From assembly GCA_020849295.1 (NCBI GenBank), contig JADLGN010000027.1, positions 62,001 to 126,000 of the forward strand: a stretch of 64,000 bases of DNA, in the 5' to 3' direction. The DNA is from Bacteroidia bacterium. GTDB lineage: Bacteria > Bacteroidota > Bacteroidia > NS11-12g > UBA9320. The notes under the pieces were generated by a model. It was not told the origin of the DNA, did no database searches, and saw nothing but the letters and a program-made list of their open reading frames with translations. Below are positions 2,737 to 61,722 of the stretch, piece after piece (the first letter of the stretch is position 1; the number at the start of each line of letters is the position of its first letter). A program made the translations under genes and the position numbers.

Positions 2737-2740
2737 AAAT

Positions 2741-4150: not shown

Positions 4151-4162
4151 CATTAATAGAAT

Positions 4163-4541: not shown

Positions 4542-4578
4542 GCTGCACTTTTTATTAAAAATGATAATAATATAATTT

Positions 4579-5667: not shown

Positions 5668-5716
5668 ACCAAGCATTTTATCTTTAATATTTTTAAATTT
5701 ATTTCAACACTGATAA

Positions 5717-17813: not shown

Positions 17814-17820
17814 ATTGTAT

Positions 17821-37297: not shown

Positions 37298-37331
37298 TAA
37301 GCAAACTTACATTAAAATTTAATTTATAAAA

Positions 37332-37363
37332 AAAATCCCGACAGATTTAACTATCGGGATTTT
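37332..37363 (-). terminator. Intrinsic terminator of the giant surface-protein gene
   Basis: Perfect 10-bp arms AAAATCCCGA (37332-37341) and TCGGGATTTT (37354-37363) with a 12-base loop. On the minus strand a run of T residues follows. It lies 23 bp after the stop of the 14.9-kb gene. Confidence 0.85.
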
Positions 37364-37385: not shown

Positions 37386-40300
37386 TCAGTTACTAACTTC
37401 AAATCTCAACATAGAATTTCCTTGCTTAGTACTTAGTTTTATGTAATATACTCCTGATGCAAGATTGTGATTGCTAATTGTAACTGTGTTGTTAAATTCA
37501 ATATTATTCAACACTGCCTTACCCAATTGGTCATATACCACCATATTTACCTTATCTCCTGTACTTACTTCTACTGTAAATACTTCTTTTGCCGGATTAG
37601 GATAAATATTAGCTACAAATGAATTTTTCCTTATACTGCTTACAGAAGTAGCATCATAAAGAGTCACATTATAATTTGCAGGATTACCAATACATCCGTT
37701 TGAACCTGTTTCGGTAACAGTAAGTGAACCTGAAACAGATGGTTTTGAGTTCCATTTAACCTGTATTGTACTTGCTCCGTTTGATAATACTGTACCATTT
37801 ACAGCAACCCAATTGTATGATGAACCGGCGTTATATGGTACTGTGTAAGTCTGAATGCTTTCATTTGGAATATTTGTTGGTCCTGCTATAGTTGTATTGG
37901 CAGGATTTGCAAGTACTCTCATAGTGTAATATGCAGAATCTTTACAACCAAATATAGTTGATACAACAAGTTTCACAATATAATTACCTGCAGTTGCATA
38001 CGTTCTTGAAGCATCTTTTGTGGTAACGGTAGTTCCATCACCCAATGTCCACTTACTATTGTATGTTACAACGCCTGACGTATTATTTGTAAATAAGAAC
38101 GTATTACCATTTAAGCATTGTATTTCGTCGTTATATGTAAATGAAGCTGTAGGGCTTTCGTTTATAGTTACTGTTTTTGTAATATTATCAGAACATCCAA
38201 AATCAGAATTTACTGTTAATGTAACATTATAACTACCAGTTGCACTATATGTTTTCACTGCATTTACACCTGCACTCATTGTGGCATCACCAAAATTCCA
38301 CAATCTGTTCAACGAGCCTTCACTTATTGTTGAAGCATCTGTAAAGTTAAACAAATGTCCTTTGAAACACTGTGATGCACTATTAATATTGAAATTAGCT
38401 GTTGGTTTTGGATAAACCATCACTGGTGCATTTGTAGAATCTTTACAACCATTATTACTTGTTACAACAAGTTTTACATTATAGTTTGCTGCTGTTGAAT
38501 ATGATTTGTTTGGATTTGCAGTAGTTGAATTTCCTCCATCACCAAAATACCACATTCTTGTGTAGCTGCCTGAATTTATAGATGAATTATCTGTATAATT
38601 GAACAAATTACCTGTAATACACTGGCGATCGTCATCTATACTAAATGATGCAATTGGCATAGCAAAAACATTAACTGTTTTAGTAATGTTTGAAGCACAT
38701 CCATTAATAGTTTCTACACTTAAAGTAACATTGTATGTCCCTGAATTTGAATATGTATAATTAGGGTTCAAACTGTTTGAACTTCCGCCATCTCCAAATT
38801 GCCAATAAACATCATTTGCTCCTGTTGATGTATTTGTAAATGAAGTAGCCAATCCTTTACAACGCTCTACAAAAGTGAAGTTAGCTGTAGGATTTGCAAA
38901 TATTACAATTTGTTTAATAATAACATCTGTACAGTTATTTGAATTTGTAACTGTAAGTTTTACGTTATAGGTACCTGCGTTGGTGTATGCATGAGTTGGT
39001 GAAGCTAATGTAGATGTTCCTCCGTCACCGAATTCCCAAGCATAAGTTGTACCGCCTGAAGAAGTATTGCTAAAAGTAGCTGTTACACCTTGGCAAACAT
39101 TGGCTACGTTAAAGTTAGCAGTTGGTTTGCCAAATACAACTACATTACTTGTGTATGAATTTACACAACCTTTATCTGTAGTTGCTGTAAGATTAACTAT
39201 ATAATTTCCTCCTGATGAATAAGTATGAGTAGGATTTGTTGAACTGCTTGTATTGCCATCTCCAAATTTCCATTGGTAAGTCATACTTCCGGCACTTAAT
39301 GTGGAGTTGTTAGTAAATGTTGCACTTGTACCAACACAATAATTACTTGAATGTGTAAATGATACTGAAGCACGAGGATGAATTGTTACATTTGAATTTG
39401 TAGTATCAAAACATCCATTAATAGATGTTACAATAAGTTTAACATTATATGTTCCTGGTGAATTGTATGCTTTAACAGGATTTGCTGTGCTTGATGTATT
39501 TCCATCTCCAAATGTCCAGGCGTGCCCAACTGCTCCTACAGAGTTTGAAGCAAATGCCAAATTATCATTTGTACATCCGTTGTTTACGTTAAATGAAGCT
39601 TTTGGTCTTGCCCAAACAGTAATTGTTTTATAAGTAGAATCTGTACAGTTGTTAGAGCTAATTACTACAAGTTTAACATTGTAATTGCCATCTATAGTAT
39701 AAATATTAGTTGGACTTGTCTGTGTACTAATATTGCCATTTCCAAATGCCCATTTATATGAAGCTCCTCCTGTTGAAGTATTTGTAAAATTCATTATTCC
39801 TCCTCTGCATATAGGATTTGGTGAAGCAGTAAATGATACGTTTGGTTTTGGATAAACAGTAATTGATTTTGACAAAGAATCTTTACATCCGTAAATAGTC
39901 ATAGCAACAAGTTCAACATTATATGTGCCTGAATTGGCATATTTATAATCAGGAGATTTTGTTGCACTACTGTTTCCATCGCCAAACTTCCATAGATATG
40001 TAGAAGCTCCGCTAGTTTGATTATCAAAACTTATAAATGTTCCAAGGCATTGGTTGCTTGCATTAAATGCAACTGTTGGTTTTGGATGAATTACTACTGA
40101 ACCTGTAGTTGAATCTTTACATCCATATACATTAGATACAACAAGTTTTACATAATAAGTTCCTGCACTTGTATAAGTTTTTACCGGATTTTTAACTGTA
40201 GATGTTGTTGCATCTCCAAAACTCCAAAGATTTGAAGTTGCTCCTATACTTGTGTTGTTAAATGCAATACTGTTTCCTATACATACATTATATCCGCTGA

Positions 40301-43300
40301 AAGAAGCTTCTGGCGAGCTATAAACAGTATAACTGCTGCTAATTGTATTTGTACATCCAAATGAAGTTTTTGCAGAAAGTGTAACTGTATAATTTCCTGG
40401 ATTTGGATAAGTATAGCTTGGATTTGCTAAAGTTGAAGTAGTTCCATTTCCAAAATCCCAGTTATATGTACTTGCTCCGCTCGATGTATTTGTAAAGCTG
40501 CTTATAAAACCATAACATACATTATTTGTTGTAAATCCTGCGGTTGGATTTGGATAAATCGTAACAGTTTTAATTATTGAATCAATACAGTTGTTTATTG
40601 ATTTTACAAGTAGAGTAATATTATAGGTTCCTGCTGTAGCATAAGTATGTGTTGGGTTTACTGATGTTGAAGTACCACCATCGCCAAATTTCCAGTAGTA
40701 AGTTATAGCACCACTTGATGAATTTGAAAACGATGTTGATAAACCTATACAATTATTAGAAGTACTGAAATTAGCGCTAGGTTTGCTGTAAAGTTCAACT
40801 GTTTTTACAACAGAGTCTTTACAACCAAATGATGAAGTAGAAATAAGCTTAGCAGTATAAGAAGCTGCTGTACTATATGTTTTAGTAAAGCTCGATGAAG
40901 TTGAAGTACTTGTAGTACCATCGCCAAATTTCCATAATAGACTTGCATAGTTTGATGAACTATGGGTAAATGTGTTTGCGTTAGGATAACATTCATTTGT
41001 TGCAGTAAATGCCGGTATTGAGCGAATATTAAATACTACTACTTTAGTTAATGAATCTTTAAATCCTCCTGGTAATGATATTCTGAATTTAACATTATAT
41101 GTTCCTGAACTTGCATAATGGTGGCGTGCATGTTGAACATTTGAAGTACTGCCATCACCAAAATTCCAATAGAATTGTAAACCAGAACCTGCACCACAGG
41201 CATATATTGTTTCATCTGTAAATATTGCAGAGTCACCATCACATTTCAATACAAAAGAATAGGCTGGAGTTGGCGAAGTAGCTACTAATACAGATTTTGA
41301 AACAGAGTCTTTACAACCAAGGTTACTAGTTCCTACAAGTGTAACCGTGTATGTTCCGCTTGATGCGTAAGTTTTGTTTGGAACATTTGAAGTGCTTGTA
41401 GTTCCGTCTCCAAATTTCCATAGATAAGTCAATGTACCTGATGATATCCATGAATTGTTTGTAATTGGCATTGGGTCATTATAACAATGATTTGCCGCAG
41501 TAAATACAATATTTGGTTTTGGCAATGTACGAACCTTTATTGCATTACTTTCGCCGCTTGGACATCCCGGACTTTGTGCTAGTCTCTTGAAATATGTCAA
41601 TTGAAGCAGTGCAGGTGATGAATACGTTGACAATGTTGCTCCGCTTATATCTGTCCAATTGATACTATCTGTTGATGATTGCCATTGGAATGTATATGAA
41701 CCTGGTCCTCCGGTAGGGGCTGAAATTTGAGTAAATCCTGCAGGTGTATATCCTGCACATATTACCTGGCCACTTCCTATTGAACCTCCTGTAATTGGTG
41801 AATAAAGTTTTACTTTTACTCCGTTTGTTCCCTCTGATGGGCAATTGCCTGATGTAACTAATACTCGGTAATACGTAATACTTGTAACATTAGTTGGTGT
41901 ATAAGTATTTGAATTGGCACCTGTAATATTACTCCATGTTGATGAATCTGGAGATTGTTGCCATTGATAATTGTATGTACCATAAGCTCCACTTGGTGCT
42001 GTGCTAAAACTAAATGCTGTACCTGTTCCATTGTAACAAATTGTTTGTGGCGAACCTATTACCCCTGCATTCAAAATTGTATTTGTTGTTATTTTTATAA
42101 TATTGCTATAACGTGGTCCACAACCTGACACAGTTTTTACCATTCTGCGATAATATTTTGTTATAATTAATGAAGGTGGCTGATAATCTAATCCTGTTGC
42201 TCCGCTTATATCAGTATATGTAACATTGTCATTAGAACTTTGCCACTGGAATGTATATGGAGCCTGGCTGCCCGATGCACTTGTAATATTATAAATCAGT
42301 GCTGGACTTGTGTTGTAGCAAATAGTTTGATTTGCTCCTATACTTCCTGGATTTAACTCTGGTAAAATCAATATTTGGCGAGTAAAACTATCAACGCAAT
42401 TATATGCAGATGTAGATATAAGTTTTACATAATATGCAGTTCCTGGCGTTGAGTATGTATGACTTACCGGACTGCCTGTGCCTGTAGTTCCATCTCCATA
42501 TTTCCATGTATTTGCAGATATTGTGCTGCCAGTAACAGTTGATGTAGAAGTTAGCTTTAAAGAATTGCCAGCACAAGTGTCAGAATATGTAAATGATACT
42601 TTTGGTAAATGATAAACATCAATTGATCCGTTAAAAGTGTCATTAGTATTATTATCAAACACCCAACTTGTAAATGCTTTTATCGTATTGATTCCTGTAA
42701 GTGTAAATGGTGTCTGAATATTATGTATAATATCTATAGAATCGCCGGCAGCAAGTGTATTTGAAACTAAATGAGAATAAACCGAACCTCCGTTCAAGCT
42801 GTAATTTACATAGAAATTGCTTGCTGAAGTAAATCCTACATTTTTCACTCTTAATTGTACTGATGTTAAGTCGTTAGTTTTACATATTGTTAATGGACTT
42901 AAAAGTGTAGAAACTCTTATATCTCCGGTAAATTCATAAGCACCAATTGTTGGAGTTGATGAATTTCTAACTGTATTTTCAATATCTCTGCTAACACCTA
43001 CAAATTTTCCTGCAGTTGAAAGAGCGGTATTTTTTATATGTAAATCTGTAGTTGAATAATACATTGGATTTACAGATTTTGAATTTATATCGCTTTTTAC
43101 AGGCGAATTATAAAATACGCCTGCCATACTTGATGCATTACCAAAACCTGAACCTATAATACTTGCAATTACACCTCCCGATGTAGCATTGTAGTAATTA
43201 TTATGGTCAACCATGCTGTATCCTGTTATCAAGCCATTAAAAATAGCTGTAATGCCAACCTGTGTAGCAAAATTGTTGTTTACAATTCTGTATGAAGTAT

Positions 43301-46300
43301 CCGAATAAGCATAAGTGTATAATGCTGTTCCCATTCCAACCATATTTACGCTGTTATGATATAAATATGTATTGGTTGGATAATAAACATATAACCCATA
43401 TTTTCCTGTACTTGTAGTTCCAAGACAACTTACACTATTATTCAATATATAGAATTTTCTATACCCACTGTCTGCCATATAACTTCCATAAGAATAAATA
43501 TAATAAGATGGATATTGAACAATAACTCCAAATCCGACATCTGAACTAAGTTTTATATTATTATTTTTCATTACTCCCCCTTTAGCTATATATGAACTAA
43601 AAATTCCACGTTTGCTTCCATAAGCAGATGCTGATGTTATTTTATTATTTGAAACAATCGGGTATTCCATATATTGCATTGCAATACCATGATAATAAAA
43701 ATCTGAAATAATATTTGAGTCAATAATAACATTTCTGCTCATAATCAAGTTTGGTACTGTTGGCGACAATCCTGCCCAAAATATTCCATTAGAACCATAA
43801 TTAATTGTGTTTTTTACAAAACTGTTATAATTATGGTTTTGGTTGTAACAAAATACTGGTGAGTAGTATTGTGATGTAGAATTTACATTCATACCTGTAA
43901 TTATGTTATTATATAAAATATTACTGTCTGAAGAAACTAAGCCATCCATTTCAAAGTTTACTACCGAACCATAATTTGTAATTGTAGAAGTAGCTGTAGA
44001 TTTAAGTGTTAAATCTTTAATAATTATTCTTTTCGCACCTTTAAGCATTAGTGTGTAATTTTGAGTAAGCACCAATGGGGCTGCATATTGCAAAGTTACA
44101 CTTGAAGGATTTCCATCTGCCGAACGGAAAGTAACTGTATTATTGCCGGTTGCCCCCGGAATTTTATTTATCAAAACTTGTTCAGTATATGTACCTGCTG
44201 CAACATTAAATACTACAGGTGCAGAAATACCGCAAGCTGATGCTGTTATTACTGCTTCCTGCCATGTTGCATAATTGGTTGATGATGGTGTTGACCCAAT
44301 AGTAAATGTTCCGCTTAAAGCACCACAAGTTGTTTTCCAAATTGTATCGTTTAATGTATAACCGTCAGTAACTCCATTTGGTTCAGATGTAAATACATAT
44401 AATGTGTCTTTTGCTGCAATGGTAAGTAAATACTGATTGCTTCCTGTAAATCTTGCAGTGTCCTGAGCAAGAGAAGTAAGACTTCCGCTCCAGGTAATTG
44501 TTTTTACTGTTCCTTTTTTGCCAATTTTATAGTTAATTTTTGCAGAAGTAATTGTATTAAATCCAAAGTTTTTGAAATTAACCCATACATCTGTTAAACC
44601 TGCTGCTGCGGGTGCTATAGGTTTAAGTATTACAAGTGGTCCTATATTGTTAGATGGAGGTGTGTATTCGTCACATCCTATATCTGTTTTTGTAGTACTT
44701 CTCGTTTCTCCGTCAATATCTTCAGTATATCCTGCTAATGCTACTCCTGTAGAGTCTAAAGCAAGTGAATGTGTATGCATATCGCATGGCGAGAAATATT
44801 CGGGGTCAATGCTTACTGAATTTGTATCATTGGCTATACCCATATAAGTAGCAGATGACCAAAGTGAATCTGAACTGAAAAGAGTACCATTAAAATAGTA
44901 CTTATTTGATCCTTTGGTTAGGTAGTTATTATTGTTCATACCACCTATCACTGCTGCTTGGGCTTCAGTATTTGTACCTGAAATATACATGGCAACTCCA
45001 GAACCATTATTTATGAAATTATTATTGTAGATACGATTGTTGGTATAAGTAGTTCCTGAATAAAAATATCCGCTGAAAGGAGTGCTATACATATATGTAC
45101 CATTAACAAGAACACTATTATAAACCCAGTCAGTATAAATACAATAATTAGGATATAAACCATAAGTAGTAGATGAAGAAGATGGCAATCCAATATTTAT
45201 CATATTATTTGATACTTCGCAGCGTAAAGTTGCACTGCCGGTACTGTAATTTTGATAAATACCATATCCGCCCGACTGACCACATATACGGTTTTTAGTA
45301 ATTTTACAATAATTGAGATAATATGAATAAATTCCATATGTATTTGTATTTACTCCCCTTCCAAGATTATTTATTCTATTTCCAGATACTTCCATTGTAT
45401 CATGATAATACAGATATAAACCATAGTAATACTGATTATTTAAAATATTACGGGTTAGTTTGTTTTTGTGTGACAAATATGTTGGAGTAGTGCTGTAACC
45501 AAACCATGTAATACCAAAATATCCTCCGTTTACAGTATTGCTGTCTAAAACAGTATAGTTTGCATTATATCCTGATGACGAATAAGAAGTGTTTGAAGCT
45601 GAAATTGCAATACCAACAATATTTGAACTGACAATTGTTTGATTTACATCAATTATACATCCTTTAATAAGCATTGAGTCACAACCCTGGTTTCCATTTG
45701 CTTTCATACTTATACCCCATCCGTAAGTTGTTCCGGTGTTTTCAATACCTATATTCATAAATCTCAAATGTTTTACCCCAACAAATTGTACAACATGGCG
45801 TGGATCAGAAACCGTAGAGTTCCATACTATTCTGCATTTGGTAGCATCTACTCCGTTTATTGTTACGGTATTAGTTGCAGATGCTCCCGGAATTAAGCCG
45901 GGGAAAGTTCCTTGTTCTATATATGTTCCTGCTGAAGCGGTAATTGTTACCGGTCCATCAACTCCACAAGTATAAAGCGCTGTAACTGCTTTTGTAAATG
46001 ATTTGAAATTTGTAGTGCCTGAACCTGCCGGATTTATAGTATAATTTCCCGATAATTTTGCACAGAAACCATAATATCCGGTTGTATCATCATAATGCTG
46101 ACCATCGGTATTTGAGTTTACATTTCCTGTAAATGCTCTCATTTCATTATATCCATAGCCGAAAGTAGCTTGTTTACTTCCTGTAAATTTAACTGTATCT
46201 AAACCGCATGCAGGAATATTTAATCCGGTAAATGTTTCTGAAACTGTAGTTCCGTTCAAATTATAACTTACATCAAGGCTTGTAATAGTTGTAGAGCCGG

Positions 46301-49300
46301 TATTCATTATTTCTACTTCAATATCGTAAGGTGTACTCGGTGTAATATTTGAAGAAGCAGGTGTTACAATTCTTGTGGCTGATGCACTAAAAGAAGGTAC
46401 TTGTGCTTCATGTGCCCCAATAATTGGTAACGAACCGCTACGTGTAGTACTAAAATAATCATTTGTAACTGCTGTAAGCGGAGTTCCTGTCATATTGCAT
46501 GTATTAGACAATCTTAAATCATAATTACTGTAAAAAGGTGGCTTTAAATATTTTGAATTTGCACCTCCTGCTGTTGATGTTTGGAAAGTAGAAGTTGTAT
46601 ATACACCTGCATGAAACAAAACATATACGCTACGTGGATTCCAATAAACATTATAATCAACATTTCCCGAACCAACATTGACTGTACTGTATAGTGTATA
46701 GCCATATGCATTGGCTGTAGGACTATTCATTGCAAAAATGTTGTTTTTATATACATTATTTGCCATTGATGTGTATAATGCATAAGTTGCTGCTCCACTA
46801 TATTGATTAAAACTGTTATAATAAAAATCCCAGAAATCGGTTCCCGGTGCGTAAATACCATAAGTTGTATTTTCAAATACTACCATATTATTTGCAAATA
46901 ATCCTCTTAGGCTTGCACTATTGGTACAATAGTAAAAATACATACTATATGATGCACTAGAATATAAGATTTTATTCCCAGAAAATTCATTATATGATGT
47001 TGGTGTTTTTTGTGCCAAATAATATAAATAAACAGGATAGCTCGTTGCGAACTTACCATTTATCACATTGTTGCTAAAAACTAACCCTGATAAATAGTAT
47101 AAATTTACTCCCACAGCTCTGCCTCCATAGAAATAATTGTTTCTCATAAAGATATAATCACTTCTTGAACCAATTGCAGTACTGCTATAAAAATAAACAT
47201 TAGCATAACCATATCTGAAATGATTAGAGTCAATCTCCAAACTGTCTGTTGTAATATTTGAACTTACTGTAGTAAGTGAAGCACTAACTACAAGCGGAAC
47301 ATTAAAAGTACTAGTAGAAAGAGAGTCTCCTAAAATAAACAGATTACAACCTTTAATTTTTATTTTTTTGCAATTATTTCCAAATATATGTGCTGCCCAT
47401 CCATAAATTCCCTTTACATGCAGTGATACGTTTCGAAGTGTAACATATTTGGTATTGTCAAATCTCCATACATAGTGTAAACCGGTAAAACTTGTAGAAA
47501 GTGTAGAATCAACTATTATAACATCCTCTTTGTTTCCGGTACTTGACTGGAATGTAATCCAGTTTGTATTTGATGTTCCTGCAATATAAGGTAATGTTAC
47601 CTTTTCCATATATCTTCCAGGGCGAATGTTAAAAGTCACAGGACCTATAACTCCTCCACATACAAGATCATTTATTGCCTGATTTATTGTAGCAAAATCA
47701 GGAGAAGAACCCCCTATAGTGTATGTACCGCTAAATGCAACCCCAATATTAAAAGCTGTTGTATCGTTAAGTGTATTTTCATCTAAAAGATTGTCAGGAT
47801 TTGATGTCCATGCTTTGAATGAAACGCAACCAGAAATGTGGTTATATCCTGTTGAAAATAACACAGAAGTAGTATCACACAATGCAAGCGGATTGGAAAG
47901 GTAAAAAGTTTGTGAAACAGGTGTATTATTATTTATAGAATAACTTACAGTAACTGTATCTATAGGAGTTGAGCCATTGTTTAATATATTTACTCTAACC
48001 TGTTGCATACCTGCTATTAAAGGTTTTGCAGGTTTCACTATAGAATAAACCGCTACATCTCTTGATAATGCCTGTGATTCATGTGCTCCAATAATAGGTT
48101 TGCTTGTACTTCTTGTTGTATTGTAAATATCAAAAGGTACAGATGAAATATAACTGCCTGTTAAATTACAATCAAAATAAACCCTTAAATCAGAAAAGCT
48201 GTAATATGTAGGTTTAAAGAATTTGGAATTTGCACCGCCTGTTGTGCTCAAAAGAGATTGAGATATAGGGAATGCCGAGCCATTATATATTGGAGTGGCC
48301 CCAGTAGGGTGCCAGTATATATTATTATCAATGGTTCCGGGGGTAGAAGCTACTGTTTGATAAACTAAATAACCGCCAGTATTTCCCCAAGTATTAGTAT
48401 TAGTTAATAAATTATTTTTTATTACATTGGTAGTAGTATTGTTATAAATATTGTATGATGTATAATTTGATGATGCATTATACATATTAATAGTATTATG
48501 GTAAATGTCCCAATAATTACAAGTTGACATATAAAGTCCATAACTACCCTGACCCCAAATCATATTATTGTAAAAATTCCAATTATTGCTGTTAATAGTA
48601 TATATTCCATAACCTCCCGTTTGGGTATTTATTGTATTATTTGAAATAGTTCCTTTGCTTAACAAATTATCACCATAATATAAATACATTGCATAGCTTG
48701 TACCGGCATCAATAAAATTACCTGAAATTTCAGAAGGTGCAGATGTGAGGTATTGCCCAAAATAATACATATAAACTCCATAAGTAAGATTTGAGTAATT
48801 TTTACGTAATAATCTATTATTGTTAAATCTTAAACCTGACTGATAAAACATATATGTGCCATAATAATATGCACCATAAAAAATATTATTTCTGTAAAAG
48901 TTATTATCCTGTCGTGAAGTTGTACTCGAGCCATAAGCAACTAAACCAAAATATCCATATTTAATTATATTAGAGTCAATTTCAAGACTATCAATTTTTG
49001 CACCAGAAGAGTATGTTGAATTTGAGCCGTTGATAACAAGCGGTATTTTATTTGAATTTCCTGAAGTTGAATCATTACTTATTATTACACAATTTTTTAT
49101 TTTAATATTTTGGGTTCCATTTCCCATAATATGCAAGCCCCATCCATAACTTGGTCCTTTTTGTAATAAAGTAACTTTTCTTAATGTCATATACATTGAA
49201 GTATTAAATCTCCACACATGTGCATCAATATTTGACAAAGCCGAGTCAATAATTATCACATCTTCAGCTTTACCGGTTGCTGATTGGAAAATAATATAAT

Positions 49301-52268
49301 TTTCTTTTGATGAGCCTGCAATTGCACCAACATTTATTTTTTCGCGGTACGTACCCGAATCAATATCAATTACTACAGGTCCACACAAACCTTTGCTTGT
49401 AAGATCAGCTACAGCAGCATTTATTGTACTATAGTCTGCTCCTGTTCCTCCAACAGTATAGGTTCCGCCCATACCTGCTCCACCGTTTCTAAACCAAAAT
49501 GTGTCACGTGGTGTTACTGATACTGAATTAACACTTGAAGCGGTAACTCCTGCAGGAAATGAAGAAATATTTGCTGCACTGTCCTGCACAATACAAAATG
49601 CATAACAAGTATCACCAATAGTAAATCCACTCATTGTGCTGTAATCTACCGTAAAATTCCATACTCCATTAAATCTTGTTCCTGAAGCTAATGACCCTTT
49701 TACTGACTGGAAAGATCCCGCTTTACCTTTTTTGTAATATAATCTTGGTAAATTAGAACCAGACTCAGGCAAACCTCCCTGATCAATAATTCTTGCTTTT
49801 ACCGGTCTTGTAGTACTTGAACAGCTTATTGGTGAAAAAATATCAAACATTGCCGGAGGAAATACATCAGAAGATGTTGTAGTAAAACTTCCTTCGTCTG
49901 CTCCTATATCAGGAGCAGTGCCAGAACCTGAATAACCTGTATTTCCTTGTCTTGCTGTTGCATCATAATCATCAGTTATGCCAAAGATGTTCATACCGTT
50001 ACTCTCTACATTTGTTTGAGCTGTGGCATCAATATGTAAGAAGTTAGAGTTGCTTCCTGTTGTACTTGCAAATGTAACATTCTCGCTTACCGAACCCATT
50101 TCTGCTATTTTTACTCTGCGACGATATGCATCCATTGTTTGGCATGCAAGAATACCGTCCCAGTAAATTAGTCTGGTGCTTGATGGGCTGCCTGCATAAT
50201 AAATATTATTTTGGCTGTAATTAAGAATCTTATCAGGACTTAAGCCATTACGCCAGTGTGCAACGCTTCTGCCCGATGAACCGGGGGTGGCAAGGTTTAT
50301 AAAAATATTATTTTTTATTGTTGTATTTAATGAAGTACTTGTATATAAAGCTGCCGAACTAAATCCGGAACCTGAACTGGTAAATGATGGTATATAAACA
50401 GTATTATAACTAACATTTGCTGCTGTTCCTGATGAAACATCAATACCTCTGATGGCTGGGCTGTATGATGATGTGCTTGCTTTTAAGTTTCCTACAGTAT
50501 TGTTAAATATTTGAGTAGTTCCATAAGTATTATATATACCATACACATATCCTGAAAGAGCATCAATATCGTGTACTTTATTGCGGTAAATATAATTTTG
50601 ATCAATGCTTCCGTTGAAATAAATACCATAAATTGTTCCTGTAAAACTTGCAGGTGAAGTATAATTCCCTAATGAGTTATTATAAAAATTATTTATAGAT
50701 GTTGTTGAACCTCCAAAAAATGAGAGATAGTGTGTACCACTTGTCCCGCCAGAGCGACTGTTTCCGTTAATATAATTATTATAAACTTTAAATAACGGAG
50801 AACTACTTGTTGATATATACATATCGTAAGTGGTGCTTGTGCCCTTATAAACATTTGACTGGATTGTATCATTATTAATAGTTGTTAAACTATTTCCTCC
50901 TGAAGTAAAAAAAGCATAAGTCGTGCCTCCTGTAGTAGTGCCGGATGAAAGTCTTGAATTATTTTTAATTGTATTATCCGAAACATTAAGAGTGCTTCCA
51001 ATATTTGTATTGCTTGCGGAATTATAGAAATGATAATGAGTGCCTGTACAAGAAATGGAAGTAGAACCAATAGTGTTGTTTAAAATTTTATTTCTTTCAA
51101 TTTTAGTTGTAAAACCTGCTGCTGAATTATAAAAATAGTAAATAGTAGCACTGGAAGAATTAGAAAAAGTACAATTTGATATTTCATTATCTGTAATTTC
51201 TACCAAATTATTTGTACCGCTAATTCCAATTGTATTAAATATTCCATAATGTATAGAAGTAGTTGTAGATGAAGGTGATGATAAAACCGGCGTCAAAGTC
51301 AATTTATTCTTTCTAATTCTAATTGTAGAATTTGTTCCTGCAGTCGTATAAATACCATATATACTTGAAGTAGTAAGATTTCCTCCGGAAATAGTATTTC
51401 CATCAATAAATGACCTGTTTTGTGCATATATATACATTGGGTAAGTAACAGAAGAACCTCCTCCGAAATTTGTAATTGTATTGCCTTGGCCTATATCGCC
51501 TATACGGTTTCCTACATCATAAGTAGAGTTTGAACTTGAATATCCGTATAATACAATTCCATTAATTACATCAGAAATTGTATTACTCAAAAACTGATTA
51601 TAATTGTTTGTATTTGTTATAGTATCAGTTGGGCTATATTGTGATGTAGTCGTTCTTATATGATTTGCTACATAAATTCCTTTGCATCCTGATGGGCCTA
51701 TACCTGATGAGCCGGTATGGGCTTTATTCAATGTAATAGTGCAATTTTTAATTACATTATAGCAGCAACCATCCGAAGAGCTTGTAGCATTCTTTTTTAA
51801 TAAGGCATAACCCCACTCCATACGTGTAGTTGTAGAAGTATTTGAAGAGTTTTCTGATAAATCTATTCCATCAATAGTTACATAGTCAGAACCCGAAAGT
51901 ATAAAAATACCATCTAAAGATCCTGTACCTGTATAAGCAGTTATTTTTGGATTAGGCGATCCGCCGTTGTTTTCAAATCTTATTGGATTTGCTGAGGTAC
52001 CGGTAATTTTCAATTCAATTGCCGAAGTTAAAGTTTCGGTATGTCCAGCACTCACTTGTATTACTACACCGCCGGTACCTACTCCGTAAGTGTTCAAATC
52101 AGTTACTGCTGCCTCAACTGTTGCATAATCACAGCCCGATGAACATACTGATTTTGTACCTGTGAGCTGTGCTTTGGCTGATTTTGTGTTAAAAAATAAA
52201 ATAAAGAAACTTAATGATAAAAAGGTTAAACAAAACCTTGACGAATTAATAAGTAAATTTTTTTTCAT
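37386..52268 (-). CDS. Giant T9SS-secreted surface protein (beta-helix, CARDB, Ig-like and PKD modules)
   Basis: A 4960-residue predicted adhesin or surface-structure protein. Signal peptide: about 1-33 (ends AKAQ). Five related modules begin near residues 33, 935, 1513, 2073 and 2652; the last four open with G-T/N-Y/F-T-I/V (for example GTYTIGGSSPDFATINQAI). All contain long Asn/Tyr/Gly-rich right-handed beta-helix repeats (patterns like NNxI-x-N-x-Y-G-I-Y). CARDB-like spacers follow (for example VRVNILNNGSTPIDTVTVSY). A CARDB-like domain near 3110 and a PKD domain near 3220 are followed by three Ig-like modules (about 3305-3580). Fifteen more PKD domains run to about 4788 (WKFGDGTTST cores). 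The last 80 residues are a T9SS type A sorting domain (NIYPNPAKEVF ... RFEVSN). It is a single uninterrupted frame. Confidence 0.92.
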   Translation of the reverse strand: MKKNLLINSSRFCLTFLSLSFFILFFNTKSAKAQLTGTKSVCSSGCDYATVEAAVTDLNTYGVGTGGVVIQVSAGHTETLTSAIELKITGTSANPIRFENNGGSPNPKITAYTGTGSLDGIFILSGSDYVTIDGIDLSENSSNTSTTTRMEWGYALLKKNATSSSDGCCYNVIKNCTITLNKAHTGSSGIGPSGCKGIYVANHIRTTTSQYSPTDTITNTNNYNQFLSNTISDVINGIVLYGYSSSNSTYDVGNRIGDIGQGNTITNFGGGSSVTYPMYIYAQNRSFIDGNTISGGNLTTSSIYGIYTTAGTNSTIRIRKNKLTLTPVLSSPSSTTTSIHYGIFNTIGISGTNNLVEITDNEISNCTFSNSSSATIYYFYNSAAGFTTKIERNKILNNTIGSTSISCTGTHYHFYNSASNTNIGSTLNVSDNTIKNNSRLSSGTTTGGTTYAFFTSGGNSLTTINNDTIQSNVYKGTSTTYDMYISTSSSPLFKVYNNYINGNSRSGGTSGTHYLSFFGGSTTSINNFYNNSLGNYTSPASFTGTIYGIYFNGSIDQNYIYRNKVHDIDALSGYVYGIYNTYGTTQIFNNTVGNLKASTSSYSPAIRGIDVSSGTAANVSYNTVYIPSFTSSGSGFSSAALYTSTSLNTTIKNNIFINLATPGSSGRSVAHWRNGLSPDKILNYSQNNIYYAGSPSSTRLIYWDGILACQTMDAYRRRVKIAEMGSVSENVTFASTTGSNSNFLHIDATAQTNVESNGMNIFGITDDYDATARQGNTGYSGSGTAPDIGADEGSFTTTSSDVFPPAMFDIFSPISCSSTTRPVKARIIDQGGLPESGSNLPRLYYKKGKAGSFQSVKGSLASGTRFNGVWNFTVDYSTMSGFTIGDTCYAFCIVQDSAANISSFPAGVTASSVNSVSVTPRDTFWFRNGGAGMGGTYTVGGTGADYSTINAAVADLTSKGLCGPVVIDIDSGTYREKINVGAIAGSSKENYIIFQSATGKAEDVIIIDSALSNIDAHVWRFNTSMYMTLRKVTLLQKGPSYGWGLHIMGNGTQNIKIKNCVIISNDSTSGNSNKIPLVINGSNSTYSSGAKIDSLEIDSNIIKYGYFGLVAYGSSTTSRQDNNFYRNNIFYGAYYYGTYMFYQSGLRFNNNRLLRKNYSNLTYGVYMYYFGQYLTSAPSEISGNFIDAGTSYAMYLYYGDNLLSKGTISNNTINTQTGGYGIYTINSNNWNFYNNMIWGQGSYGLYMSTCNYWDIYHNTINMYNASSNYTSYNIYNNTTTNVIKNNLLTNTNTWGNTGGYLVYQTVASTPGTIDNNIYWHPTGATPIYNGSAFPISQSLLSTTGGANSKFFKPTYYSFSDLRVYFDCNLTGSYISSVPFDIYNTTRSTSKPIIGAHESQALSRDVAVYSIVKPAKPLIAGMQQVRVNILNNGSTPIDTVTVSYSINNNTPVSQTFYLSNPLALCDTTSVLFSTGYNHISGCVSFKAWTSNPDNLLDENTLNDTTAFNIGVAFSGTYTIGGSSPDFATINQAINDLVCGGVIGPVTFNIRPGRYMEKVTLPYIAGTSNTNWITFQSSTGNKEDVIIVDSTLSTSFTGLHYVWRFDNTKYVTLRNVSLHVKGIYGWAAHIFGNNCKKIKIKGCNLFILGDSLSTSTFNVPLVVSASLTTVSSNITTDSLEIDSNHFRYGYANVYFYSSTAIGSRSDYIFMRNNYFYGGRAVGVNLYYLSGLVFSNNVINGKFATSYPVYLYYLAQKTPTSYNEFSGNKILYSSASYSMYFYYCTNSASLRGLFANNMVVFENTTYGIYAPGTDFWDFYYNSFNQYSGAATYALYTSMANNVYKNNIFAMNSPTANAYGYTLYSTVNVGSGNVDYNVYWNPRSVYVLFHAGVYTTSTFQTSTAGGANSKYLKPPFYSNYDLRLSNTCNMTGTPLTAVTNDYFSTTRSGSLPIIGAHEAQVPSFSASATRIVTPASSNITPSTPYDIEVEIMNTGSTTITSLDVSYNLNGTTVSETFTGLNIPACGLDTVKFTGSKQATFGYGYNEMRAFTGNVNSNTDGQHYDDTTGYYGFCAKLSGNYTINPAGSGTTNFKSFTKAVTALYTCGVDGPVTITASAGTYIEQGTFPGLIPGASATNTVTINGVDATKCRIVWNSTVSDPRHVVQFVGVKHLRFMNIGIENTGTTYGWGISMKANGNQGCDSMLIKGCIIDVNQTIVSSNIVGIAISASNTSYSSSGYNANYTVLDSNTVNGGYFGITWFGYSTTPTYLSHKNKLTRNILNNQYYYGLYLYYHDTMEVSGNRINNLGRGVNTNTYGIYSYYLNYCKITKNRICGQSGGYGIYQNYSTGSATLRCEVSNNMINIGLPSSSSTTYGLYPNYCIYTDWVYNSVLVNGTYMYSTPFSGYFYSGTTYTNNRIYNNNFINNGSGVAMYISGTNTEAQAAVIGGMNNNNYLTKGSNKYYFNGTLFSSDSLWSSATYMGIANDTNSVSIDPEYFSPCDMHTHSLALDSTGVALAGYTEDIDGETRSTTKTDIGCDEYTPPSNNIGPLVILKPIAPAAAGLTDVWVNFKNFGFNTITSAKINYKIGKKGTVKTITWSGSLTSLAQDTARFTGSNQYLLTIAAKDTLYVFTSEPNGVTDGYTLNDTIWKTTCGALSGTFTIGSTPSSTNYATWQEAVITASACGISAPVVFNVAAGTYTEQVLINKIPGATGNNTVTFRSADGNPSSVTLQYAAPLVLTQNYTLMLKGAKRIIIKDLTLKSTATSTITNYGSVVNFEMDGLVSSDSNILYNNIITGMNVNSTSQYYSPVFCYNQNHNYNSFVKNTINYGSNGIFWAGLSPTVPNLIMSRNVIIDSNIISDFYYHGIAMQYMEYPIVSNNKITSASAYGSKRGIFSSYIAKGGVMKNNNIKLSSDVGFGVIVQYPSYYIYSYGSYMADSGYRKFYILNNSVSCLGTTSTGKYGLYVYYPTNTYLYHNSVNMVGMGTALYTYAYSDTSYRIVNNNFATQVGITAIFNGLITGYSMVDHNNYYNATSGGVIASIIGSGFGNASSMAGVFYNSPVKSDINSKSVNPMYYSTTDLHIKNTALSTAGKFVGVSRDIENTVRNSSTPTIGAYEFTGDIRVSTLLSPLTICKTNDLTSVQLRVKNVGFTSASNFYVNYSLNGGSVYSHLVSNTLAAGDSIDIIHNIQTPFTLTGINTIKAFTSWVFDNNTNDTFNGSIDVYHLPKVSFTYSDTCAGNSLKLTSTSTVTGSTISANTWKYGDGTTGTGSPVSHTYSTPGTAYYVKLISTSAYNCVDSFTRQILILPELNPGSIGANQTICYNTSPALIYNITSASGSQAPYTFQWQSSNDNVTYTDISGATGLDYQPPSLIITKYYRRMVKTVSGCGPRYSNIIKITTNTILNAGVIGSPQTICYNGTGTAFSFSTAPSGAYGTYNYQWQQSPDSSTWSNITGANSNTYTPTNVTSITYYRVLVTSGNCPSEGTNGVKVKLYSPITGGSIGSGQVICAGYTPAGFTQISAPTGGPGSYTFQWQSSTDSINWTDISGATLSTYSSPALLQLTYFKRLAQSPGCPSGESNAIKVRTLPKPNIVFTAANHCYNDPMPITNNSWISSGTLTYLWKFGDGTTSTSNVPNKTYASSGTYTVTLVGTSNLGCKDSVSKSVLVATSPTPAYSFVLKCDGDSAIFTDETIYACGAGSGLQFYWNFGDGSTSNVQHARHHYASSGTYNVKFRISLPGGFKDSLTKVVVFNIRSIPAFTATNECYPNANTFTHSSSNYASLLWKFGDGTTSTSTSSSFTKTYSTAASYTAKLISTSSFGCKDSVVKTVELYSKPSANFSTSNNCIGLSTSFSNSSSGAITYYWKFGDGGTSTSVNPTHTYATAGTYNITLLVKSINNCIDSIIKTVTIYPNPTAGFTTNNVCYGFISSFTNTSSGASTYNWDFGNGTTSTLANPSYTYPNPGNYTVTLSAKTSFGCTNTISSSYTVYSSPEASFSGYNVCIGNSIAFNNTSIGATSNLWSFGDATTSTVKNPVKTYTSAGTYYVKLVVSNVYGCKDSTTGSVVIHPKPTVAFNASNQCLGTFISFDNQTSGASTYLWKFGDGNSSATKSPDYKYANSGTYNVELVAMTIYGCKDSLSKSITVYPKPNVSFTASPNPICRGGIMNFTNTSTGGASYKWAFGNGNISTQTSPTNIYTIDGNYNVKLVVISSNNCTDSTYKTITVWARPKASFNVNNGCTNDNLAFASNSVGAVGHAWTFGDGNTSSTANPVKAYNSPGTYNVKLIVTSINGCFDTTNSNVTIHPRASVSFTHSSNYCVGTSATFTNNSTLSAGSMTYQWKFGDGNTSSSTNPTHTYSSGGNYIVNLTATTDKGCVNSYTSNVVVFGKPTANFNVANVCQGVTATFSNTSSGGTTYAWEFGDGGTSTLASPTHAYTNAGTYNVKLTVTNSNNCTDVIIKQIVIFANPTANFTFVERCKGLATSFTNTSTGANDVYWQFGDGGSSNSLNPNYTYSNSGTYNVTLSVETINGCASNITKTVNVFAMPIASFSIDDDRQCITGNLFNYTDNSSINSGSYTRMWYFGDGGNSTTANPNKSYSTAANYNVKLVVTSNNGCKDSTNAPVMVYPKPTANFNINSASQCFKGHLFNFTDASTISEGSLNRLWNFGDATMSAGVNAVKTYSATGSYNVTLTVNSDFGCSDNITKTVTINESPTASFTYNDEIQCLNGNTFLFTNNTSGVVTYNSKWTLGDGTTVTTKDASRTYATAGNYIVKLVVSTIFGCKDSAYYTMRVLANPANTTIAGPTNIPNESIQTYTVPYNAGSSYNWVAVNGTVLSNGASTIQVKWNSKPSVSGSLTVTETGSNGCIGNPANYNVTLYDATSVSSIRKNSFVANIYPNPAKEVFTVEVSTGDKVNMVVYDQLGKAVLNNIEFNNTVTISNHNLASGVYYIKLSTKQGNSMLRFEVSN
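37905..41530 (-). repeat. Tandem array of 15 PKD-domain coding units
   Basis: Coding repeats of about 78-86 codons, each with a W/Y-x-F-G-D/N-G core, a T-Y/H-x-Y turn and a YxVxLxV strand, inside the giant gene. Nearly every unit has one cysteine near its start and another about 45 residues later. Copies are diverged at DNA level. A sixteenth related unit lies separately at about 42361-42615. Confidence 0.85.
41530..42360 (-). repeat. Three Ig-like coding modules inside the giant gene
   Basis: Three units of about 90 codons, each with a GxIGxxQxIC opening, a FQWQSS or YQWQQS strand, then W/Y-x-DISGA or SNITGA, and a YYRxL or YFKRL strand with a closing cysteine. They separate the first PKD domain from the 15-domain array. 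Coordinates are approximate. Confidence 0.75.
42930..52170 (-). repeat. Five beta-helix modules of the giant gene
   Basis: Repeated units in the N-terminal two thirds. Later unit openings lie near 49466, 47732, 46052 and 44313, so three unit lengths are 1.68-1.74 kb. The first unit (to about 49466) is longer and differs at its end. Homology is at protein level; boundaries are approximate. Confidence 0.75.
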
Positions 52269-53300: not shown

Positions 53301-56300
53301 TTATAAGTTTTTTAGTGAAAGTAACTTTTCCCAATGGTCATAAATACCTTCCTGCGCATGACGCAATAAAAATTCGGCATTTTGCGGATTTTGTCTTACA
53401 AGGCTGCTAAACCTTGTTTCTTTATATAAAAACTCTTTCACTTCTATTGAAGGCTCTTTTGAGTCAATTGAAAATTTTTCTCCTTTTGGTTTAAGTGGAT
53501 TATATCTGAAAAGAGGCCAATATCCTGATTTTACTGCATTCACTTGCTGATTTGCCCCATTTGCCATATCATATCCATGAGCTATACAATGGCTATAAGC
53601 AATAATTACGGAAGTGCCCGGAAATGCTTCAGCCTCCTGAATTGTTCTTATTGTATGTGCATCATTAGCTCCCATTGCAATTTGTGCTACATAAGCCGAA
53701 CCATGAGCTATTGCTTGCATTGCCAAATCTTTTTTGCCGGTAACTTTGCCATTTACAGAAAATTTTGCACTTGCTCCTATTGGTGTTGATTTTGATTTCT
53801 GACCACCTGTGTTTGAGTAAACTTCGGTATCAAGTACAATAATATTTATATTTTCTCCTGTAGAAAGCACATGGTCAAGTCCTCCAAATCCTATATCATA
53901 AGCCCAACCATCTCCACCAATTATCCAATGTGATTTTTTTACCAGACTGTCGGCAATTAAGTTTAGTTTTTGTGCTTCAAAAGTATTTATGCCTGATATT
54001 TTTTCTCTAAGCAGCTCTACATTTTTTCTTTGTAATTCTATTCCTGCCTCATCGTTTTGGTTACATTCCAAAATTTGATTGCTAAGATTATCTCCTATTA
54101 TATTTTTTAATTTTAATACCAGATTTCTTGCTGATTCTGTTTTATGGTCGTAAGCCAGTTTTATTCCAAGTCCGAATTCGGCATTGTCTTCAAAAAGTGA
54201 ATTTGCCCATGCCGGACCGCAGCCTTTACTGTTAGTTGTCCATGGTGTAGTAGGCAAATTGCCTCCATAAATAGATGAACAACCTGTGGCATTTGCAACT
54301 ACCATTCTATCACCATAAAGTTGAGATAATAATTTCACATAAGGTGTTTCGCCGCAACCCGAGCAAGCTCCCGAAAATTCAAATAACGGCTCTAAAAACT
54401 GAGTACCTTTAACAGTATTTTTATTTATTTTAAGCCTGTCCATTTCCGGAATTGAAAGAAAAAAGTTCCAGTTTTCTATTTCCTTTTCTTTTACATCTAG
54501 CTGTGGTTTCATGTTCAAAGCTTTTATTCCGGGTTCAGTTTTGCTTTCCATTGGGCAATATTCATAGCATAGATTACAACCTGTACAATCTTCTACTGCA
54601 ACCTGCAAAGTATAAGCCTCCGTTTCTTTTGAAAACTCTTTTCCAACAGGTGGCACATGTTTGAATGATTCAGGCGAATTTTTAAGAATTTCTTTTTCAT
54701 ACACTTTTGGTCTTATTGCCGCATGAGGACATATCAAGTAACATTTACCACATTGTGAACACAAATTTTCATCCCACACAGGAACCATTTCGGCAATATT
54801 TCTCTTTTCCCATTTTGTAGTTGAAACAGGATAGATGCCGTCAATAGGAAACGCACTTACAGGCAACTCGTCTCCTTCAAATTTTATGATTTTTGCTAAT
54901 ACATTTTTTACAAATTCAGGAGAATCGTAAGGAACTGTTTTGTCAACTTGAAGATTTCCATTTATATATTTTGAATAATCAAGCTCAATTAAATTGTCGA
55001 GGGTTTTGTCAACGGCTTCATAGTTTTTTAAAACAACAGCTTCGCCTTTTGATGAATACGATTTTTTAATAGCTTCTTTAATTCTGCCTATTGCCTGTTC
55101 TTTGGGCAAAATACCTGATATGGCAAAAAAACATGTTTGTAAAATTGTATTTACTCTTGAACCCATACCGGTTTGACGTGCAACAACCGCAGCATTTATT
55201 ATATACAATTTAATTTTCTTATTAATAATTTCACTTTGAACAGATGAAGGAATTTTATCCCATGTTTCTTCGCTGCTGTAAGGCGAGTTTAATAAAAATA
55301 CTGCTCCGTTTTCAACATTTTTCAAAACATCGTATTTTAAAATAAAATTGAACTGATGTACAGCAATAAAATTTGCTGAATTGATTAAGTATGTTGATTT
55401 GATTGGCTTAGCTCCAAATCTAAGATGAGAAACCGTTAATGAGCCTGATTTTTTTGAATCGTAAACAAAATAACCCTGCACAAAATTATCAGTGGTGTCT
55501 CCAATTATTTTTATTGAATTTTTATTTGCACTAACTGTTCCGTCTGCTCCCAGTCCGTAAAATAATCCTCTAAACAAATGTTGTTTGTCAAGTGAAAAGG
55601 TTTTGTCATACTCAATACTTGTATTTGTAATATCATCATCAATACCTACAGTAAAATGATTTTTAGGATTAGTTTTATTCAATTCATCAAATACTGAAAT
55701 AACCATAGACGGAGTAAATTCTTTTGAGGCAAGTCCATATCTTCCTCCTATAATTAAAGGCATTTTTCTTTTACTTTCAACCAAAGCATTTACAACATCC
55801 ATGTACAAGGGTTCTCCTATGCTTCCGGGTTCTTTACAACGATCTAAAACAGCTATTTTCTCAACAGATTCGGGAATTATATCAATAAAATCTTTAACTT
55901 CAAATGGGCGATATAACCTTACATATACATATCCTGTTTTTTCAGACTTAATATTATTTAAAAATTCTACGGTTTCTTCTACTGTTCCTGCACCTGATCC
56001 CATTATTACAATTATTCTTTCTGGATTACTATGCCCAAAGTATTCAAATGGTTTGTAATATCTGCCTGTTAAATCTCCAATGCTTTTCATCAATTGCTTA
56101 ACAGCAACAGGTGTATTTTTGTAAAATTTATTAGCTGCTTCTCTGCTTTGAAAAAAAACATCAGGATTTTGCGCTGTACCTCTAATAGTAGGATTTTCCG
56201 GCGACATGGCATTTTGACGAAATCTCATAACATCGCTTTCATCAATCATTGATTTTATTTGTTCATCGCTTATTACATTTACTTTCATAAGTTCATGCGA

Positions 56301-56828
56301 CGTTCTGAAACCATCAAAAATATTAAGAAAAGGAATTCGTGTACGCAGTGTTGCAGATTGAGCTAAAAGTGCCATATCCATTGCTTCTTGTGCATTTTTC
56401 GAAAAAAGAAATGCCCAACCTGTTTGCCTTACTGACATTACATCAGAATGATCGCCAAAAATAGAAAGTGCATGTGTGGCTAATGTTCGGGCTGCAATTT
56501 GAAAAACCGCAGGCAGCAATTCTCCTGCAATTTTATACATATTAGGTATCATTAACAGTAAGCCTTGAGAACAAGTAAATGTAGATGAAAGAGCTCCGCC
56601 TTGTAAAGAACCGTGTACTGCTCCTGCTGCTCCTGCTTCGCTTTGCATTTCTATAATTCGCGGAGTTTCGCCATATATATTTTTGTGACCTGCTGCTGAC
56701 CATTCGTCACAAAGTTCTCCCATAGTTGAAGATGGAGTAATTGGATATATAGCACAAACCTCGTTTGTTTTATAGGCAATATATGCTGCTGCTTCATTGC
56801 CATCCATTATTTTTATGTTGTTGCTCAT
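53301..56828 (-). CDS. nifJ: Pyruvate:ferredoxin (flavodoxin) oxidoreductase
   Basis: Thiamine-diphosphate enzyme that oxidatively decarboxylates pyruvate to acetyl-CoA and reduces ferredoxin. It has 1175 residues, the length of single-chain PFORs. Domain I begins GNEAAAYIAYKTNEVCAIYPITPSS. The ferredoxin-like domain has two [4Fe-4S] motifs, CSQCGKCYLICPH and CTGCNLCYEYCP. The third cluster and TPP-binding domain show ACSGCGETPYVKLL, NATGCSSIYGG, GDGWAYDIGFGG and LDTEVYSNTGGQKSKSTP. Its ATG overlaps the stop of the FAD-subunit gene by one or two bases, so it is co-translated with the molybdoenzyme genes. That placement suggests electron supply to that enzyme rather than only central metabolism. 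Confidence 0.96.
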   Translation of the reverse strand: MSNNIKIMDGNEAAAYIAYKTNEVCAIYPITPSSTMGELCDEWSAAGHKNIYGETPRIIEMQSEAGAAGAVHGSLQGGALSSTFTCSQGLLLMIPNMYKIAGELLPAVFQIAARTLATHALSIFGDHSDVMSVRQTGWAFLFSKNAQEAMDMALLAQSATLRTRIPFLNIFDGFRTSHELMKVNVISDEQIKSMIDESDVMRFRQNAMSPENPTIRGTAQNPDVFFQSREAANKFYKNTPVAVKQLMKSIGDLTGRYYKPFEYFGHSNPERIIVIMGSGAGTVEETVEFLNNIKSEKTGYVYVRLYRPFEVKDFIDIIPESVEKIAVLDRCKEPGSIGEPLYMDVVNALVESKRKMPLIIGGRYGLASKEFTPSMVISVFDELNKTNPKNHFTVGIDDDITNTSIEYDKTFSLDKQHLFRGLFYGLGADGTVSANKNSIKIIGDTTDNFVQGYFVYDSKKSGSLTVSHLRFGAKPIKSTYLINSANFIAVHQFNFILKYDVLKNVENGAVFLLNSPYSSEETWDKIPSSVQSEIINKKIKLYIINAAVVARQTGMGSRVNTILQTCFFAISGILPKEQAIGRIKEAIKKSYSSKGEAVVLKNYEAVDKTLDNLIELDYSKYINGNLQVDKTVPYDSPEFVKNVLAKIIKFEGDELPVSAFPIDGIYPVSTTKWEKRNIAEMVPVWDENLCSQCGKCYLICPHAAIRPKVYEKEILKNSPESFKHVPPVGKEFSKETEAYTLQVAVEDCTGCNLCYEYCPMESKTEPGIKALNMKPQLDVKEKEIENWNFFLSIPEMDRLKINKNTVKGTQFLEPLFEFSGACSGCGETPYVKLLSQLYGDRMVVANATGCSSIYGGNLPTTPWTTNSKGCGPAWANSLFEDNAEFGLGIKLAYDHKTESARNLVLKLKNIIGDNLSNQILECNQNDEAGIELQRKNVELLREKISGINTFEAQKLNLIADSLVKKSHWIIGGDGWAYDIGFGGLDHVLSTGENINIIVLDTEVYSNTGGQKSKSTPIGASAKFSVNGKVTGKKDLAMQAIAHGSAYVAQIAMGANDAHTIRTIQEAEAFPGTSVIIAYSHCIAHGYDMANGANQQVNAVKSGYWPLFRYNPLKPKGEKFSIDSKEPSIEVKEFLYKETRFSSLVRQNPQNAEFLLRHAQEGIYDHWEKLLSLKNL

Positions 56829-57769: not shown

Positions 57770-57774
57770 TTTAT

Positions 57775-60564: not shown

Positions 60565-60574
60565 CTCAATTTTT

Positions 60575-60961
60575 TTATAAATTTTCTATAACTCTTTTTA
60601 GTTTTTCTTGTACTTGAATAGCTGTATCTCCAAGAATGTTGTTTTTTACAGCCATCATTGAAGCTACAGGGTCTATTGCACTTACTTCAACTTGGTTATT
60701 TTCGATTTCTTGCACTATTACATTACATGGCAACATAGTACCTATATGTGGTTCGGCTGATAATGCTTTATGAGCAAAAAACGGATTGCATGCTCCAAGT
60801 ATTTTGTATTTTCTGAAATCAACATCAATTTTTTTCTTTAAGGTTTCTTTTACATCTATTTCTGTAAGAATCCCAAATCCTTCTTTTTTTAATTCTTCGC
60901 TTACTTTTTCTATTGCTGCATCAAAATCTAAGGATAATTTTTTTGTAAAATAATAATTCAT
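60575..60961 (-). CDS. DUF302 protein
   Basis: A 128-residue DUF302-family protein. Conserved blocks: KKEGFGILTEIDVKETLKKK, YKILGACNPFFAHKALSAEP and GTMLPCNVIVQEI, including two cysteines (C61-like in GACNP and the PCN motif). DUF302 proteins are small, often found near heavy-metal or redox genes, and have been proposed to bind ligands or metals; no activity is established. It sits between the SDR gene (22 bp, containing a short GT run) and the molybdoenzyme fusion (10 bp) in the operon. Confidence 0.9.
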   Translation of the reverse strand: MNYYFTKKLSLDFDAAIEKVSEELKKEGFGILTEIDVKETLKKKIDVDFRKYKILGACNPFFAHKALSAEPHIGTMLPCNVIVQEIENNQVEVSAIDPVASMMAVKNNILGDTAIQVQEKLKRVIENL

Positions 60962-60967
60962 CTTTTA

Positions 60968-60980
60968 TGTGTGTGTGTGT
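60968..60980. repeat. Short (TG)n dinucleotide run upstream of the DUF302 gene
   Basis: TGTGTGTGTGTGT, 13 bases, in the 22-bp gap between the SDR stop and the DUF302 start. It may change spacing of the ribosome-binding region by slippage, but may also be neutral. Confidence 0.6.
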
Positions 60981-60983
60981 TTA

Positions 60984-61721: not shown

Positions 61722-61722
61722 A

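Follow-up and report, generated by a model that had tools for sequence, protein, structure and literature searches.

A gene in the window (the whole 64,000-nucleotide stretch of Bacteroidia DNA that was analysed) encodes a protein in which the length of a C-terminal stalk is locked among related species while the N-terminal head is not. This combination is the new finding. The protein is probably a stalked adhesin or glycan-binding fibre that is exported as a T9SS cargo, anchored to LPS and fitted with an exchangeable head; this reading draws on sequence comparison, on structure models and on analogy with known systems. The original prediction had spoken of a very long fibre or adhesin, and this is likely. 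The full fibre would measure roughly 100–150 nm, a figure estimated from usual domain sizes and not computed.

Gene and domain architecture

The gene lies on the minus strand as a single frame of 4960 codons that starts with ATG (Table 1); the plus strand over the same positions is full of stops. An intact frame of 14.9 kb, taking almost one quarter of the window, had been predicted with no strand given, and is confirmed. No other type A sorting-domain match of the genome has a longer frame (open frame of 4984 codons here; the next has 2873). G001, a congener, has an ortholog of 4957 aa with 77% identity over the full length and nine indels of 1–2 residues, thus there is no sign of a frameshift or of a collapsed array. 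The upstream genes of the ortholog are common to the window locus. Between the window gene and G001, every module is under purifying selection (dN/dS 0.05–0.18 at dS 0.87–2.08). The ortholog and these dN/dS values rule out an assembly artefact or a pseudogene. It should be noted that all genomes compared are draft assemblies and that the comparisons are at species level.

The gene stands alone. The MOSC-domain gene upstream is 224 bases away; on the other side, a hairpin resembling a terminator begins 25 bases past the stop, ahead of a lumazine-binding (riboflavin-synthase-like) gene. Positions 53301–63148 (minus strand) encode a pyruvate:ferredoxin oxidoreductase beside a molybdenum hydroxylase and a MOSC protein. 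The hydroxylase is of the 4-hydroxybenzoyl-CoA reductase/xanthine dehydrogenase type, with scores below the equivalog cut-offs. This set of genes suggests an anaerobic metabolism.

Table 1. Features of the giant gene and the hairpin downstream of it (positions in the window).
Feature	Position	Strand	Basis
Whole gene, 4960 aa	37386..52268	-	open frame and translation
Sec signal peptide, residues 1–34 (MKKN...SAKAQ)	52167..52268	-	read by eye from translation; cleavage site inferred
B1, long N-terminal beta-helix, residues 35–795 (761 residues)	49884..52166	-	AlphaFold2 model and VIA
X1, beta-sandwich-like (Ig-like) linker, residues 796–932	49473..49883	-	model; comparison with G004
B2, beta-helix, residues 933–1398	48075..49472	-	module comparison
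C2, CARDB-like linker, residues 1399–1512	47733..48074	-	Pfam CARDB 18.1 bits, cut-off 22.7
B3, beta-helix, residues 1513–1955	46404..47732	-	AlphaFold2 model of B3+C3; VIA
C3, CARDB-like linker, residues 1956–2071	46056..46403	-	AlphaFold2; Foldseek match to CARDB 3idu
B4, beta-helix, residues 2072–2536	44661..46055	-	module comparison
C4, CARDB-like linker, residues 2537–2650	44319..44660	-	module comparison
B5, beta-helix, residues 2651–3114	42927..44318	-	module comparison
C5, CARDB-like linker, residues 3115–3221	42606..42926	-	module comparison; CARDB 21.2 bits, cut-off 22.7
P0, first PKD, start of stalk, residues 3222–3300	42369..42605	-	Pfam PKD_4 39.2 bits
I1–I3, Ig-like domains, residues about 3301–3584	41517..42368	-	module comparison
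15 PKD domains, residues about 3585–4780	37929..41516	-	Pfam and module comparison
PKD_6-like domain, residues 4781–4887	37608..37928	-	Pfam PKD_6 25.5 bits, cut-off 25
Type A T9SS sorting domain (residues 4888–4956) to stop	37386..37607	-	Por_Secre_tail, TIGR04183
Intrinsic-terminator-like hairpin, ATCCCGA / TCGGGAT then eight T	37328..37360	-	sequence read directly

The head (residues 1–3221) consists of a signal peptide and five right-handed beta-helix modules, the first long and the other four shorter, with Ig/CARDB-like linkers between them. The stalk (residues 3222–4960) consists of a PKD domain, three Ig-like domains, 15 PKD domains, a PKD-like domain and a type A T9SS sorting domain. 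Module boundaries were set by hand and the modules then compared pairwise. Helices B2–B5, units of about 445–465 residues alternating with linkers of about 110, are mutually homologous (24%–41% identity), and their homology to B1 is weaker. Linkers C2–C5 are likewise homologous to each other. The Ig-like domains I1–I3 are 37%–44% identical to each other and have a likeness to SprB repeats that lies below the Pfam cut-off (16.0 vs 28 bits). Exactly two cysteines are present in each of the 16 PKD and three Ig-like domains.

BLASTP of the whole protein against itself reported no module pairs. No tandem repeats were found at the DNA level; the array is therefore old and diverged.

Of the domains listed in the original prediction, the PKD array (16 PKD_4 stretches above the Pfam cut-off, in tandem), the beta-helix fold and the type A sorting domain stand. 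CARDB stays under the sequence cut-off in the two linkers tested (Table 1) and is represented by a fold match, described below. By sequence the Pfam Beta_helix model is also just under its cut-off (23.6 vs 25.9), and linker X1 gave no Pfam family above cut-off. The separate zones for the different repeat types and the base-shaft-tip layout that had been proposed hold in sequence, in comparison and in predicted structure. By residue, helices with their linkers occupy 35–3221, the Ig-like zone 3303–3581, the PKD zone 3577–4779 and the sorting domain 4888–4956.

Stalk length and head exchange among relatives

The stalk was taken as the sequence from the first PKD domain to the end of the protein. 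Its length is 1739, 1741 and 1741 aa in the window, G001 and G004 (three congeners), with indels of 2 aa or less. This agreement gives no support to the frameshifts or collapsed repeats that the original prediction had considered. A second genus of the same family (termed g3), represented by five species, has a stalk of 1795–1798 aa with two more PKD domains; indels are again 2 aa or less in 10 of 10 pairs. A third genus (G007) has the same count as g3, i.e. 1 + 3 + 17, or 18 PKD and three Ig-like domains.

The PKD domains are also in register within a genus. PKD k of the window best matches PKD k of its congeners in 16/16 cases for G001, 16/16 for G004, and 14/14 of those present in G003. Within g3 the register is 18/18 for G018–G020 and 16/18 for the more distant pair G018–G015. 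It is lost between genera (window–G018, 3/16; window–G015, 5/16). Each genus has a constant number of PKD domains, and it is the head that varies across species.

PKD copies within the stalk have a mean identity of 39%, and their longest exact DNA repeat is 20 bases, compared with 11–16 in 20 codon shuffles. This low similarity between copies may be enough to keep the stalk length stable even if length itself is not selected.

A query consisting of the neck and the start of the stalk matched at least 597 of 605 residues in at least nine of the 108 genomes of the order, with the best 12 candidates scored per genome. A class-wide search found the neck in eight of 149 genomes at E-value = 1e-30 or less; six of these are outside the order, with 35%–43% identity over part or most of 360 aa. 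Thus the Ig-like trio is not unique. The G004 stalk gene (L067/L078/L079, G004:C2) is at a different locus from that of the window: one of its flanks matches window positions 4579–6955 and the other matches G003 (L077, G003:C14) at 82%–93%.

The heads show another pattern. The window and G004 have 64.8% identity in the stalk vs 27.5% in the head. The G004 head has a different N-terminal domain, followed by B1-type helices with X1-type linkers after them. The G001 head is the same as that of the window. Neither the window nor the G004 head query matched a head for the G003 giant, whose stalk begins at the edge of contig C14; a third head type and an assembly gap look the same here.

One pair from g3 will be used to show the relationship in detail. 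G008 and G018 have 93.4% identity in the stalk, 60.7% in the head and 90%–95% in three flanking genes. Two head helices drop to 22%–51% identity per 100 aa, and the linker between them (C2) has 65%–72%. In a tree of 28 helices, B2 and B3 of G008 form one clade with B2 and B3 of G022, a distant species (97/94). Within it the B3 pair is joined at 99/98 and the B2 pair only at 91/66. Grouping the G008 helices with their counterparts in G018/G020/G015 was rejected by the AU test (p = 4.8e-4 for B3 and 4e-56 for B2), the groups having been named after the identities had been seen. In the stalk tree G008 is placed with G018 at 100/100.

The dS between G008 and G018 is 0.71 in the stalk and 1.03–1.54 in the three flanking genes. 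Most of the head is near or at saturation (pS about 0.72–0.80). Two linkers lie outside this saturation: C1, which is stalk-like (dS 0.74), and C3, which is less so (1.28). Since C1 has a stalk-like dS, the head is a mosaic and not the product of one clean swap. This pattern suggests an exchange of head cassettes, in part helix by helix. Old alleles under balancing selection would look similar, and because the head dS is saturated the two histories, balancing selection and horizontal transfer, are not separable. In a further g3 comparison, G015 has one helix and linker unit (551 aa) more than G018.

That the head differences reflect fast divergence or assembly chimeras, with no exchange, is improbable. 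Every genome is a draft assembly and the head dS is saturated, both of which favour such an origin. The exchanged helices, however, lie within one frame between a 93% identical stalk and related linkers (C2, 65%–72%), and they have positional partners in another species. Chimeras are not expected to preserve the frame and the module boundaries.

The clear case of exchange is confined to g3 (five species); for the window gene, the inference has a single congener, G004, behind it. Heads are not always variable, since a paralogous giant has retained seven helices in each of G000, G001 and G006.

Predicted structure, export and anchoring

Structure prediction, which had been suggested for the modules, was run on B1+X1 and on B3+C3, and both give a right-handed beta-helix. 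The AlphaFold2 model of B3+C3 (51 aligned modules; pLDDT 90.7, pTM 0.88) has the helix followed by an Ig-like domain. VIA-align gives B3 a Z of 30.7 to the alginate epimerases AlgE4 (rmsd 2.7, 318 aligned) and AlgE6 (rmsd 2.8, 322 aligned). The top Foldseek matches of the B3+C3 model are GH136 lacto-N-biosidases, a PL6 lyase, phage tailspikes and pectin methylesterases, and linker C3 matches the solved CARDB domain 3idu (TMt 0.58, E-value = 0.017). The B1+X1 model (10 sequences) has a mean pLDDT of 74.6 and a pTM of 0.73. B1 is closest to AlgE6 (5lw3; Z 24.9, rmsd 3.3, 330 aligned), and the adhesin PfbA is among its structural matches (Z 21.3, rmsd 3.7, 340 aligned).

The nearest solved folds are thus mostly polysaccharide-acting beta-helices, from alginate epimerases and lyases, GH136 and PL6 enzymes to pectinases and phage depolymerases. 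They favour a tethered polysaccharide-processing enzyme, in which at least one helix would be a lyase, epimerase or hydrolase that cuts polymers from its position on the stalk. This is nevertheless an improbable reading. Pfam gives no beta-helix enzyme family above cut-off in the protein. In an alignment of 51 modules (many of them paralogs), no column of the helix body (positions 40–415) has D, E, K, R or H conserved at 85% or more, while eight Asn columns are invariant; one active site shared across the helices is therefore unlikely, and the alignment is compatible with a site in a single module. The invariant Asn columns resemble structural Asn ladders. A beta-helix fold alone does not give function.

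A structural coat, sheath or S-layer-like protein, the head modules of which would pack against each other rather than bind ligands, is improbable. The repetitive modules, the large size and the presence of several other giants in the genome are in keeping with a coat, but it is the head modules that are exchanged, whereas the units of a lattice should keep their contacts, and the neck and stalk start were found in nine of the 108 genomes of the order when the best 12 candidates per genome were scored.

In the genome, an assembly of 2.68 Mb in 55 contigs that is 99.99% complete, there are 109 matches to the type A sorting domain, six of them under the curated cut-off, and 25 to type B (TIGR04131), with the giant gene not among the latter. 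The sorting domain of the giant scores 43.1–49.5 bits for Por_Secre_tail (cut-off 27) and 48.7 for NCBIfam TIGR04183 (cut-off 23). SprA (2385 bits, cut-off 200) and a PorU-type sortase (1179 bits, cut-off 420) are present. A PorZ-like T9SS protein is encoded in the window itself at 17815–20076 (plus strand; PorZ N-terminal propeller 113.9 bits, weak sorting domain). The N-terminal Sec signal, the C-terminal type A domain, and the translocon and sortase in the genome mark the giant as a predicted type A T9SS cargo. Its predicted export and anchoring to LPS are well supported, because SprA, the PorU sortase and the PorZ-like protein are all in the genome.

A SprB-like gliding adhesin, one that travels over the cell on a gliding track, is very improbable: GldB is above cut-off in the genome (227.6 vs 190) and the protein is very long and repetitive, with Ig-like domains that weakly resemble SprB repeats, but its sorting domain is type A and not type B (CHU_C 16.9 bits, Por_Secre_tail up to 49.5, each with a cut-off of 27), no PorP/SprF gene was found beside it, its neighbours encoding MOSC and lumazine-binding proteins, and LPS would hold a protein of type A in place. 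SprB-type membership was rejected on the sorting domain and the neighbours.

For an LPS-anchored fibre the following course is proposed. The signal peptide seen in the sequence would direct Sec export. The type A domain would then be recognized and the protein passed through SprA, as in the known pathway, the parts of which are present. PorU would remove the sorting domain and the new C-terminus would be joined to LPS. The PKD/Ig array would form a stalk of fixed length, with the cysteine pair of each domain probably in a disulfide. From the position of the anchor, the stalk would hold the predicted five-helix head and its Ig-like linkers away from the envelope. The head, facing partners, phages or substrate, may be swapped between lineages, partly helix by helix, with the stalk retained. 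Its probable role, judged from fold and analogy, is binding of polysaccharide or glycosylated surfaces, not catalysis by one shared site.

Comparable proteins and meaning

Giant1–4 of Apilactobacillus kunkeei are surface proteins of 3000–8000 aa (PMC12863079). They are described there with an N-terminal beta-solenoid head, a very long repeat rod and C-terminal attachment, as here, and also with intragenic recombination and sequence exchange (PMC12863079). They differ in belonging to Gram-positive lactic acid bacteria and in having alpha-helical repeat rods (Giant1–3), an SH3b-like anchor and a single solenoid domain compared with five helices here (PMC12863079). They are not known to have a T9SS or a PKD stalk. 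The Giant family is the nearest published parallel in layout; anchor and rod differ.

Among T9SS proteins, SprB is giant and repetitive, and the known type A cargo (gingipains) is far shorter and enzymatic. SprB of Flavobacterium johnsoniae is described as a T9SS-exported surface adhesin, like the protein proposed here, but as a type B substrate that is anchored by SprF and moves on the gliding track (PMC12635249). Type A cargo is described as anchored to A-LPS (PMC9143113), and the giant has the same type of sorting domain. The solved structures of the pneumococcal adhesin PfbA and of phage tailspikes have right-handed beta-helices facing host surfaces or glycans, as proposed here, with about 6%–14% sequence identity to the helices of the giant in structural alignments. 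PfbA and the tailspikes are not known to have a PKD stalk. In the literature, no publication was found that combines three of beta-helix, CARDB, T9SS and PKD, nor anything on a comparable head/stalk exchange beyond the comparators named, although such a paper may exist.

Other giants were seen as well. A pair of genes in G000:C19 (L046/L047, joined coordinates 1100–26145) encodes first a protein of 5475 aa, in which seven beta-helices are accompanied by eight CARDB-like linkers; it ends in ITIIK and gave no type A or type B sorting-domain match at its C-terminus. The product of the second gene, 8 bases on, is 2869 aa long and combines a type A domain with 20 SprB repeats and a peptidase of the M4 thermolysin type. 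A gene starting just after the giant of the 5475 aa type is also present in G001 and G006. A sister family (L065+L053+L054, G052:C8) has an 8168 aa frame with B1-type helix repeats.

A broader reading is possible but tentative: Bacteroidota may have modular giant receptors in which a length-locked, in-register PKD/Ig stalk bears beta-helix cassettes that set specificity and undergo recombination at the conserved Ig-like linkers. Recognition would thus be re-targeted at unchanged reach, in a cell-borne counterpart of the exchangeable tips of phage tail fibres, probably driven by phages or partners.

Giant bacterial proteins are often listed merely as repetitive curiosities. The comparison splits this one into two parts of opposite evolution, a stalk of unchanging length and a head with exchanged helices. 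This makes it testable why such proteins are so long, i.e. whether they provide a fixed reach past surface polysaccharides, and what drives change at the tip, in uncultured bacteria that have a T9SS and many giant surface proteins.
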